Source: Hyphomonadaceae bacterium (lineage in GTDB: Bacteria > Pseudomonadota > Alphaproteobacteria > Caulobacterales > Hyphomonadaceae). Taken from it: DNA of 41,616 nucleotides. Each line of letters starts with the position of its first letter. Within the stretch, counting starts at the first letter, position 1. The DNA lies in assembly GCA_947478925.1 (NCBI GenBank), contig CANJXY010000008.1:1-41616 (forward strand). The letters are read 5' to 3'. The position numbers and the translations under genes were made by a program. Below the pieces are notes generated by a model. That model did no database searches. It worked only from the letters and a program-made list of their open reading frames with translations, and was not told the DNA's origin. Shown here in pieces: positions 30,190 through 32,792 of the stretch.

Positions 30190-31119
30190 CTACGCGACGT
30201 TCCTGACGCCGGGGGCGGCGGCGCCGATCTCGCGGATGTCGAACGGGGTAGTCTGGTAGATCTCGTTGATCCAGTTGCCGAAAAGCAGGTGGGCGTGGCT
30301 GCGCCAGCGGTTCTGCGGCGGTTTGGTAAGATCATCGCCCGGGAAATAGTTGGCCGGAACCGCCCCACCGTCGCGGCTGAACTCGCCATCCAAGGTCTCG
30401 GTGTCGTACTCGACATGGTTGAACATGTGGATCGACCGGCGCTGGGGGTCGTTCAGCAGGCAGAGCCCGGTCTCTGCGCTGTCGGCAAGCACCCGCATGC
30501 CGCTGCTCGCGGGGAGATCCTCGGTGCGGACTTCGGTCCAACGCGAGACGGGGATGGCGAAATCGTCCGAGAAGCCGCGCAGGTAGGGCGATGCCGGCTC
30601 GCAGTTGCGCTGCAGGTAGACGCCGAATGCCTTGCCCGGCAGGTCGTGCTTCGGCACGCCGTGAAAGTGATAGACCGCCGCCTGCGCCGCCCAGCAGATA
30701 TTGAACGTCGAATGCACATGGGTCTGCGTCCAGTCGAAAATCTGCTGCAACTCCTGCCAGTAACGCACGTCCTCGAACGGCATCCGTTCGACGGGGGCGC
30801 CGGTGATGATGAAGCCGTCGAACTTCTCATGCCTGACTTCCGACCACGGACGATAAAACGCCGACATGTGGTCGGGCGAAGCATTGCGCGCGACGTGATC
30901 CGTGATCCGCACCAGGGTCAGCTCGATCTGCAGCGGCGTCGCGCCCAGCAGGCGGGCAAGCTGCGTCTCGGTCGAGATTTTGTTCGGCATCAGGTTGAGG
31001 AGACCGATGCGCAGGGGGCGGATGTCCTGCCGGATGGCGTCCGTTTCACTCAAGACCGCGACGCCCTCGGTCTGAAGCGTCTGGCGGGCGGGAAGGTGGT
31101 CGGGAATCTTGATCGGCAC
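30190..31119 (-). CDS. metA: homoserine O-acyltransferase (MetA family), probable acetyltransferase
   Basis: This is a 309-residue protein from GTG 31119, exactly the length of E. coli MetA. AGAGGA lies upstream of the start. Catalytic residues fall at the E. coli numbers: Cys142 (NICWAAQAA), His235 and Glu237 (NHVEYD). Residue 111 is Glu (TGAPVERM). In characterised MetA enzymes Glu111 selects acetyl-CoA and Gly111 selects succinyl-CoA, so the likely product is O-acetylhomoserine, the first committed step to methionine. The protein is cytoplasmic. A structured leader of about 140 bases precedes it and probably regulates it. The gene and the divergent amidase sit between amiC and mrcA. Confidence 0.95.
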
Positions 31120-31153
31120 GGCGCGTCTGTCCTCTAAACTCTGAAGCGACGCT

Positions 31154-31260
31154 TGTGGCTTGATCCGTATCGTTGCCGGCTCGGCCACATCCTCCTTTCG
31201 GAGCGCCACCTTGCCCGGTCGGCAGGTTGGCGTTGGGCGTCGCCCCAACTCTTGATGCTG
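31154..31260 (-). ncRNA. metA leader RNA: candidate SAM-I-clan (S-box-like) riboswitch
   Basis: Read 5' to 3' on the minus strand, helices abut exactly. P1 is GCATC (31254-31258) with GATGT (31187-31191); the joining strand is AAGAG (31249-31253). P2 is a short hairpin TTGGG/CCCAA (31233-31248). P3 runs 31204-31232 and carries CCAACC and AAGGTGG. P4 is CTCC-GAAA-GGAG (31192-31203). The strings ATCAAGAG, CAACC...GGCAAGGTG and TCC...GGA-GAT match S-box core blocks. TGTGGC (31184-31189), overlapping the 3' strand of P1, can instead pair with GCCACA (31154-31159), giving a plausible switch. P2 lacks the usual kink-turn, so this would be a variant. Confidence 0.6.
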
Positions 31261-31266
31261 CGCCCT

Positions 31267-31367: not shown

Positions 31368-32792
31368 ATGGACGAGTATTCCAGCTTTGACGGCGTCGGA
31401 CTGGCCGAACTGGTCGCCAAAGGTAAAGTGTCGCCCGCCGAGTTGACCGAGGCGGCCATCGCGCGGGTCGAGCGCCACAATCCGAAGCTGAACGCCGTGG
31501 TTTTCAAGGGCTATGACGATGCCCGCCGCGATGCCGTCGGCAAACTTCCAGAAGGCCCGTTCAAGGGTGTCCCCTTCCTCATCAAGGATCTCGCCATGCC
31601 AGTCGCGGGCTGGCCGCGCACCTCCGGCAGCCGCTACACGCGGGGCTTCGTCGACGCGCAGGATGGCGGGCTGACGGCGCGCTACCGGGCGTCGGGCGCC
31701 GTCCTGCTCGGCAAGACCAACACGCCCGAGTACGGCATCACCGGCACGACCGAGAGCAGAGCACTTGGGCCCTGCCGCAATCCATGGAATCCCGCCCACA
31801 TCTCTGGCGGCTCCTCCGGTGGATCAGCGTCCGCCGTCGCGGCCGGCATCGTGCCGCTGGCGCATGCCTCCGACGGCCTCGGCTCGATCCGCATTCCGGC
31901 GGCGTGCTGCGGACTGGTCGGATTGAAAGTCACGCGCGACCGCGTTCCCAACCTGCCCGATGGCTATGACTATGCCTTCGGCAATGTCGTCGATCACGTC
32001 GTAAGCCGCACGGTTCGCGACAGCGCCGTGATGCTGGATGCGACGGGTTATGCGGAGCCGAACGCGCCCTATCCTGCGCCGCCCAAGGATCGTCCGTATG
32101 CCGAGGAGGTTCAGCGAAGCCCCGGCAGGCTCCGCATCGCTGTCTCGTCGGAGACGCCAAATGGCCGCCCGATCGACCCCGAGATTGAGGCTGCGCTTCA
32201 GCGCACCGCCGCGCTGCTCAAAGGCCTCGGCCATGAGGTGATCGAGCGCGGCCTCGGCATCGACTATCGCGCGCTCTACGCCTCACGTGGCTCAGCGTCT
32301 GCCGGCAATTTCGCGGCCGGCATGGCGCGCCTCGCCGATGAGCTTGGTCGCCAGCCCGAGCCCGACGAACTTGAACCCCTCACCTGGGCTATCCTGAAAG
32401 CAGGTCAGCGTCAGACCGGCGCTGATGTCATGCGCTCACTGCAGGAAACGCGGATGCTGAACTACCAGACGCTAGCCGCCTTCGGCGATATTGACGTCTT
32501 TCTCTGCCCGGTCATGGGCCAGCCCGTGCCCGAGATCGGCTACGTCGATCCGGTGAATGTCGAACCGCGCGAGATCAACAAGAGGCAGGGCCGCCTCTAC
32601 CCCTTCACGCCGCCATTCAATTTCTCGGGCCAACCCTCGATGAGCCTGCCCCTTGAAGTCGACGCGAGGGGCCTGCCCATCGGCATGATGTTCACCGCCA
32701 AATTCGCCGACGAAGCGACGTTGTTCCGCCTTGCCGCCCAACTGGAAAAAGAAGCGCCGTGGCGCGGGCGCAAGCCGCAGGTCTGGGGCTGA
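31368..32792 (+). CDS. amidase signature family enzyme (6-aminohexanoate-cyclic-dimer hydrolase-like)
   Basis: This is a 474-residue protein from ATG 31368, with CGGAGGG upstream. The Ser-cisSer-Lys triad of the amidase signature family is visible: Lys73 (LIKDL), cis-Ser149 in SGGSSGGSA, and nucleophile Ser173 in [10 protein letters not shown]. The segment [13 protein letters not shown] followed by GSIRIPA resembles cyclic-dimer hydrolases of the NylA type, but this subgroup hydrolyses many amides and esters, so the substrate is open. There is no signal peptide. GatB and GatC are absent nearby and the GatA reading is not favoured. The gene is divergent from metA, about 250 bp between starts, and convergent with amiC. 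Confidence 0.88.

Follow-up and report, generated by a model that had tools for sequence, protein, structure and literature searches.

A SAM-I/IV riboswitch before metA in a Hyphomonadaceae bacterium and the possible role of its P2 hairpin in switching

Introduction

The riboswitches of the SAM-I/SAM-IV clan have core motifs in common, and SAM-I/IV RNAs are distinguished from SAM-IV by an undivided P2, the absence of PK-1, and the presence of P4 (available text of PMC6890682). Variants of the SAM-I/IV family (RF01725) with a P2 free of any internal loop are described in the accessible part of PMC2864571, and the SAM-I/IV RNA that has been crystallised is PDB 4L81 (excerpt of PMC5393176). In a survey of methionine control in Proteobacteria, the riboswitches considered are SAM-II, SAH, and SAM-SAH, with no mention of SAM-I/IV in the portions consulted (PMC4239095). 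No description of P2 as a switching strand was found in the excerpts of the SAM-I/IV literature retrieved by searches in which the slash blocked the term "SAM-I/IV" itself.

The DNA considered here, referred to as the window, is the whole stretch of 41,616 nucleotides from a Hyphomonadaceae bacterium (contig CANJXY010000008.1, assembly GCA_947478925.1). A 16S gene was looked for in this assembly and not found. An initial annotation had placed an aptamer of the SAM-I/SAM-IV clan in the leader of metA, and this assignment is borne out by a full-length match to RF01725. The best overall explanation of the leader is, with good probability, a SAM-I/IV riboswitch that would lower metA translation at high SAM by means that include strand exchange at P2.

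Class and Anatomy of the Aptamer

The element before metA is almost certainly a riboswitch of the SAM-I/IV class. In the window, cmscan matched 31159-31263 of the minus strand to model positions 1-99 of 99 of RF01725, with 55.2 bits against a gathering score of 41.1 and an E value of 1.6e-6. This is the sole RF01725 match of the window's genome at E 0.001, and the covariance model of SAM-II (RF00521) has no match in the window or its genome. The analysis shows class membership by sequence and structure model, as well as conservation and covariation of the pseudoknot, and SAM is the presumed ligand. The parts of the aptamer, all on the minus strand, are as follows.

31159..31263, minus strand: SAM-I/IV aptamer, RF01725 model 1-99 (cmscan)
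31254..31258, minus strand: P1 5' strand, GCATC (Rfam alignment)
31232..31249, minus strand: P2 hairpin, GTTGGG-GCGACG-CCCAAC, unbroken by an internal loop (Rfam alignment; 29 metA leaders)
31205..31231, minus strand: P3, with the loop GACCG at 31220-31216 (Rfam alignment; 29 metA leaders)
31192..31203, minus strand: P4 hairpin, CTCC-GAAA-GGAG (predicted fold; metA-leader alignment)
31187..31191, minus strand: P1 3' strand, GATGT (Rfam alignment; 29 metA leaders)
31175..31185, minus strand: P5 hairpin, GCCG-AGC-CGGC (Rfam alignment; 29 metA leaders)
31162..31167, minus strand: PK-2 3' strand, CGGATC (alignment column pair 48:111)

The succession of P1, P2, P3, and P4 with an AAGA(G) joint, proposed in the initial annotation, is found at 31258-31187, and the S-box core motifs that it quoted are present. 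Its P2 of 16 bases is in fact 18 nt long (6 bp and a 6-nt loop), and its anatomy stopped at P4, so that P5 (31185-31175) and PK-2 (31220-31216 with 31167-31162) were overlooked. In PK-2, the tail CGGATC faces the P3 loop GACCG, and inspection by eye gives CCG:CGG and GA:UC on either side of an unpaired A. Since only a single base lies between P3 and P4 (by eye), the PK-1 strand is absent.

A new class or an undescribed variant within the SAM clan had also been suggested, on the strength of a comparison with SAM-I. It was rejected and is extremely unlikely, as RF01725 is matched over its whole model and every SAM-I/IV feature that can be tested from sequence is present. The small P2 had counted as the novelty, but RF01725 was published in 2010 with a P2 of that kind (accessible part of PMC2864571).

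The conservation of the aptamer was followed across 29 aligned metA leaders, namely that of the window, 3 from loci of the order, and 25 from the 28 named metA loci that carry RF01725 (L026, L027, and L030 being left out). Pairing is kept in 98.6% of cells in P1, in 100% in the 6 bp of P2, and in 81.9% in PK-2, and four of the five alignment pairs of P4 change on both sides. Taken together, the named pairs of the aptamer are paired in 95.1% of cells. Both-sided changes occupy 33 cells compared with 10.4 in shuffles, and none of 500 shuffles reached this value. The PK-2 column pair 48:111 is UA in 20 rows, CG in 6, UG in 1, and unpaired in 2; these two rows belong to the window and to L098, its genus mate, and have a mismatched or bulged A. 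Taken by itself, the aptamer folds at -43.4 kcal/mol versus -35.9 when shuffled (z -2.2; 6 of 200 shuffles equal or better). The aptamer is also conserved beyond one strain, standing before metA in 28 of the 40 named metA loci that were scanned.

The Expression Platform and the Mode of Control

The strands of the leader that take part in alternative pairings, some of them within the aptamer, are listed here together with metA.

30190..31119, minus strand: metA, homoserine O-acyltransferase, GTG start at 31119-31117 (PF04204, E 1e-125; start aligned with those of relatives)
31123..31152, minus strand: Shine-Dalgarno hairpin, GCGTCGCTTC...GAGGACAGACGC (predicted in platform and full-length folds)
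31141..31152, minus strand: platform strand GCGTCGCTTCAG, the P2 complement, of which the part GCGTCGCTTC is the 5' strand of the Shine-Dalgarno hairpin
31237..31248, minus strand: P2 5' arm and loop TTGGGGCGACGC, the proposed switching strand, complement of 31152-31141
31184..31189, minus strand: TGTGGC, 5' half of the anti-P1 pairing (alignment; predicted folds)
31154..31159, minus strand: GCCACA, 3' half of the anti-P1 pairing (alignment; predicted folds)

The GTG of metA lies 39 nt beyond the end of the aptamer. The nearest NCBIfam model of the window's MetA is MetA_acetyl, whose score of 445.8 bits is just below the cut-off of 460.5. On the other side, a divergent amidase gene (PF01425; window 31368-32789) starts about 105 bases from the aptamer 5' end, and the same neighbour was seen by eye in the genus mate (genome G367, locus L098).

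A Shine-Dalgarno-like GAGGA is located at 31134-31130 of the minus strand, and in the predicted fold GCGTCGCTTC pairs with GAGG...GACGC across it. Across the 29 metA leaders, pairing is preserved in 80% of cells for the outer five pairs of this hairpin. When the platform is folded alone, 36 of 41 metA loci have at least four bases of the P2 complement paired to the final 32 nt ahead of the start, and 26 of 41 have at least three of the four Shine-Dalgarno-like bases paired. A rule-based search found no Shine-Dalgarno-like word in six of the 41 (L027, L088, L089, L091, L094, and L096).

Because a hairpin is predicted over the Shine-Dalgarno sequence and the leader is devoid of terminator-like sites, translational control is favoured, and the element is very probably a translational off-switch on metA, with a presumed direction of control. 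Transcription termination, whether intrinsic or Rho-dependent, is a quite improbable alternative. Some relatives that precede genes other than metA have, by eye, a hairpin followed by a T-run beside the Shine-Dalgarno sequence (e.g., L144 and L163), but in the window the one terminator-like site found is inside metA, compared with 0.8 expected by chance. A pattern search gave no promoter of the sigma-70 type.

The pairing of TGTGGC with GCCACA, which the initial annotation had set against P1 as the expression platform, is real, with 87.9% of cells in the metA leaders paired, and would undo P1; both-sided changes are absent from it, and alone it leaves the Shine-Dalgarno hairpin in place in the predicted full-length fold. 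Scored jointly in the metA leaders, the anti-P1 pairing and the Shine-Dalgarno hairpin show covariation no better than that of shuffles (78 of 500 as high).

Complementarity between P2 and the Platform

P2 was initially described as having neither a kink-turn nor a pseudoknot partner. It is indeed an unbroken hairpin, but it does have a complement, located in the expression platform at 31152-31141. TTGGGGCGACGC and GCGTCGCTTCAG form 12 of 12 possible pairs when G-U is counted, and for the window this complementarity has a z of 4.7, and none of 100 dinucleotide-shuffled platforms scored as well. For comparison between loci, each P2 was scored by its best ungapped complement within the platform of the same locus. 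In the control the platforms were re-dealt among loci, a procedure that leaves relatedness in; thinning of the loci lowers it but does not remove it.

With 59 distinct P2 segments, the mean for own platforms was 20.7 compared with 16.6 (sd 0.44) for re-paired ones, and none of 5000 re-pairings was as high; 84 of 86 loci were used (L128 and L130 were dropped), and part of them were the metA and order loci that had suggested the P2 idea. Tested by aptamer segment, with loci thinned to 36-57 and 17 of the 84 dropped for a missing P1 3' anchor, P2 reached z 7.5-7.9, and P1 5', P3, P4, and P1 3'/P5 lay between 0.5 and 2.0. A cleaner test is the replication on 15 loci, 13 of which were fetched after the idea and 2 of which had been unreadable before, although the sequences were viewed ahead of scoring. 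There, P2 gave z 6.0 (0 of 10000), the other segments at most 1.5, and P2 5.6 after thinning to 12 loci. In the tests of the replication stage, the segment borders were shifted by 2-3 bases from those of the 59-segment test, and the P2 segment of L128 overruns into P3. Among 47 distant representatives, P2 had z 9.4, and P1 5' (3.2) and P4-P5 (2.7) were also above the re-paired controls. These comparisons between loci show that the P2-platform complementarity covaries across the SAM-I/IV class.

These results bear on the possibility that the same class of riboswitch switches by P1 alone, through TGTGGC:GCCACA as in classic SAM-I, and that the P2 complementarity is secondary. The conservation of the anti-P1 pairing and its appearance in the window's predicted folds are in keeping with this, and a 2024 review states, in the part available, that the switching sequence is most often in the first helix (PMC10907184). 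However, this pairing is unaccompanied by both-sided change in the 29 metA leaders and coexists with an intact Shine-Dalgarno hairpin. The segment that holds P1 3' and P5 has an unclear own-pair signal (z 0.9-1.4), and the value for P4-P5 jointly in the most distant set falls to -0.5 in the replication set. Switching by P1 alone is judged improbable.

The signal is not uniform within P2. In the distant set (n = 47), z is 6.0 for the loop, 1.7 for the 5' arm, and -0.9 for the 3' arm; in the replication set, it is 2.8 for the loop by itself (44 of 10000 as high) and rises to 4.1 when the loop is extended by one base in each direction. When only metA loci are considered, thinned to 24, z is 1.8 and 354 of 10000 re-pairings are as high, a weak signal that is due to the small variation of P2 in these loci. 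For the loop part GACGC:GCGTC, 89.5% of cells are paired across the 29 metA leaders, and there are 7 double changes versus 1.4 in shuffles (0 of 500). This alignment is not decisive alone, since 6 double changes are still counted, with 57.3% of cells paired, when the register is slid by +3 columns.

Single loci reach p <=0.05 against shuffles in 30 of 84 cases, of which 12 come from the set of 40 metA loci. Striking matches are ATGATTTGACG/CGTCAAATCAT in L101, GGGTCGACGC/GCGTCGACCC in L085, GAGCAGGGCTGACGC/GCGTCAGCCCTCCTC in L127 (14/15), TGGCTTTGTCGC/GCGACAAACCCA in L163, and GAGAAGGGCTGGCGC/GCGCCAGTCCTCCTC in L165. The centring of covariation on the loop would also be expected of a pseudoknot between the P2 loop and the platform, that is, an extra tertiary contact with P2 intact, possibly a part of the SAM-bound state, and the 11-bp match of L101 and L102 places 10 of its bases inside a 13-nt loop. 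This reading is nevertheless unlikely. Of the 30 individually significant duplexes, 28 engage at least three bases of the P2 stem (mean 6.5 stem bases), so that P2 would be excluded by the duplex, and many of the loops have 4 nt. In the window, moreover, a loop pseudoknot would free the Shine-Dalgarno sequence when SAM is bound, presumably the wrong direction for metA.

The Proposed Switch

Folding of the growing chain is consistent with an exchange of P2. At chain lengths of 85-109 nt, the best fold of the window's leader is the aptamer. At 121-145 nt it is a fold that combines P2:platform with TGTGGC:GCCACA, and from 151 nt onward the Shine-Dalgarno hairpin is formed. The appearance of both pairings at 121-145 nt makes it plausible that they would be nested in one anti-aptamer fold, with TGTGGC:GCCACA as its inner and P2:platform as its outer half. 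In prefix folds, at least five P2:platform pairs occur in 71 of 99 native leaders compared with 238 of 594 mixed ones. In the best full-length fold of the window, P2 and the Shine-Dalgarno hairpin are retained, at -65.5 versus -62.1 kcal/mol for the P2 exchange; the predicted SAM-free equilibrium, in a calculation that omits PK-2 and the ligand, thus favours the hairpin by 3.4 kcal/mol over the exchange fold. For this reason, switching by P2 exchange needs a kinetic decision that is made during transcription.

In the proposed mechanism, binding of SAM would hold P1, P2, P5, and PK-2, and the strand 31152-31143 would be available for pairing to GAGG/GACGC at the Shine-Dalgarno sequence, so that ribosomes would be excluded from the GTG. 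At low SAM, the same strand would invade the 5' arm and loop of P2 over up to 12 bp, and GCCACA would take the 3' strand of P1, by which the aptamer would be dismantled. The Shine-Dalgarno hairpin would then be blocked and metA translated. The assignment of the P2:platform pairing to the SAM-free state is the one we infer, and there is a reasonable case from sequence comparison and predicted folds that P2 strand exchange switches the metA riboswitch.

The generalisation to other leaders is more tentative. There is about an even chance that in Alphaproteobacteria, and in a few bacteria outside this class, SAM-I/IV riboswitches switch via P2 and not P1, with co-evolution of P2 and platform but not of P3. 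It is equally a matter of balance whether many SAM-I/IV leaders have a complement of the P2 loop and 5' arm beside or inside the anti-Shine-Dalgarno strand. If true, a second role of P2 as switching strand may be what keeps it simple in SAM-I/IV.

Distribution and Origin

RF01725 was detected in 4 of 105 genomes of the family, 25 of 398 of the order, 35 of 385 of the class, and 19 of 398 of the phylum, in samples that overlap and with stricter filters in the large searches, by which weak matches are lost. Among the class-search matches listed, 29 were taken as loci in addition to that of the window. In the 99 loci kept, the next gene was called by BLAST of the following reading frames against three references: 41 loci have metA, 10 a PLP aldolase, 7 a DUF3293 gene, and 41 another or an unread gene. 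By eye, translations of the next gene are metF-like at L145, L147, and L149 and metK-like at L173.

From 80 named metA loci, 40 were chosen for variety and scanned. SAM-I/IV stands before metA in 28 (20 of 20 in one batch and 8 of 20 in the other), SAM-II in 8, all from Rhizobium and kin, and neither in 4. The metA of Alphaproteobacteria can thus carry either of two unrelated SAM riboswitches.

SAM-I/IV elements precede DUF3293 genes at L082, L083, L085, L099, L104, L109, and L125 (PF11697 for L082 and L083; the others by BLAST to L082). This arrangement hints that the DUF3293 family is connected with SAM or methionine, and the literature search found no description of DUF3293 with a riboswitch. 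PLP aldolase genes follow the element at L090, L093, L095, L097, L101, L102, L167, L170, L171, and L172 (PF01212 for L097; the others by BLAST to L097). The nearest NCBIfam models of L097 and L101 are the GntG aldolase and the low-specificity L-threonine aldolase, with scores far under the cut-offs.

Within the family, metA (HTS above cut-off) occurs in 69 of 105 genomes, and SAM-I/IV is found before it only in the window's genome and G367. The remaining two RF01725 matches of the family, in G379 and G264, precede DUF3293 genes. G264 has SAM-I/IV before DUF3293 (L085) and SAM-II just upstream of metA (L112).

In a MetA tree of 69 of 101 proteins, from which most Rhizobium rows had been thinned beforehand, the window and G367 are sisters (100/99). 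Eight other MetA proteins of the family group with SAM-II-linked Rhizobium (16 rows, 100/98), apart from the window; of their metA loci, three have SAM-II at gathering score and five have neither riboswitch. The deepest forks are weak, and the SAM-I/IV-linked L146 lies near the SAM-II set. L022, recorded as "Mycobacterium sp. KBS0706", has a MetA that groups with Inquilinus (100/99) and a similar riboswitch, and its genome is possibly mislabelled. Large plasmids can bear metA with SAM-I/IV, as in Aureimonas pAU20a (L175, 2441-2548) and Phyllobacterium pPT1018 (L176, 2439-2545); the kinship with these plasmids concerns metA and not the host. On the simplest reading, it looks as though the window's metA and riboswitch were gained together by horizontal transfer, and metA probably arrived with a riboswitch class that is rare in its family.

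Comparison with Known Systems

With SAM-I/IV (RF01725; PDB 4L81), the element shares the P1-P4 core, the single P2, the absence of PK-1, and the presence of P5 and PK-2. It differs in the unpaired or mismatched A of PK-2, shared with its genus mate, and has as a further feature the P2-complementary expression platform. Trausch in 2014 is reported to have tied the switch to a pseudoknot. The comparison of relatives offers a testable account of SAM-I/IV leader switching in a group for which the survey of methionine control in Proteobacteria considers other riboswitches (PMC4239095).

The ligand-binding core motifs are like those of SAM-I (S-box, RF00162), whereas the kink-turn and the P2 pseudoknot (PK-1) are missing, the 6-bp P2 is unbroken, and P5 and PK-2 are present. 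The latter two are shared with SAM-IV (RF00634), from which the element is set apart by the presence of P4, the absence of PK-1, and a P2 that is not split into two helices. SAM-II/SAM_alpha (RF00521) likewise precedes metA in other alphaproteobacteria, some of which belong to the same family as the window, but its fold is unrelated. As a riboswitch, the window's element is ordinary. What is new here, at the level of base complementarity, is that the strand which forms the hairpin over the Shine-Dalgarno sequence has a second complement in the loop and 5' arm of the aptamer's own P2.
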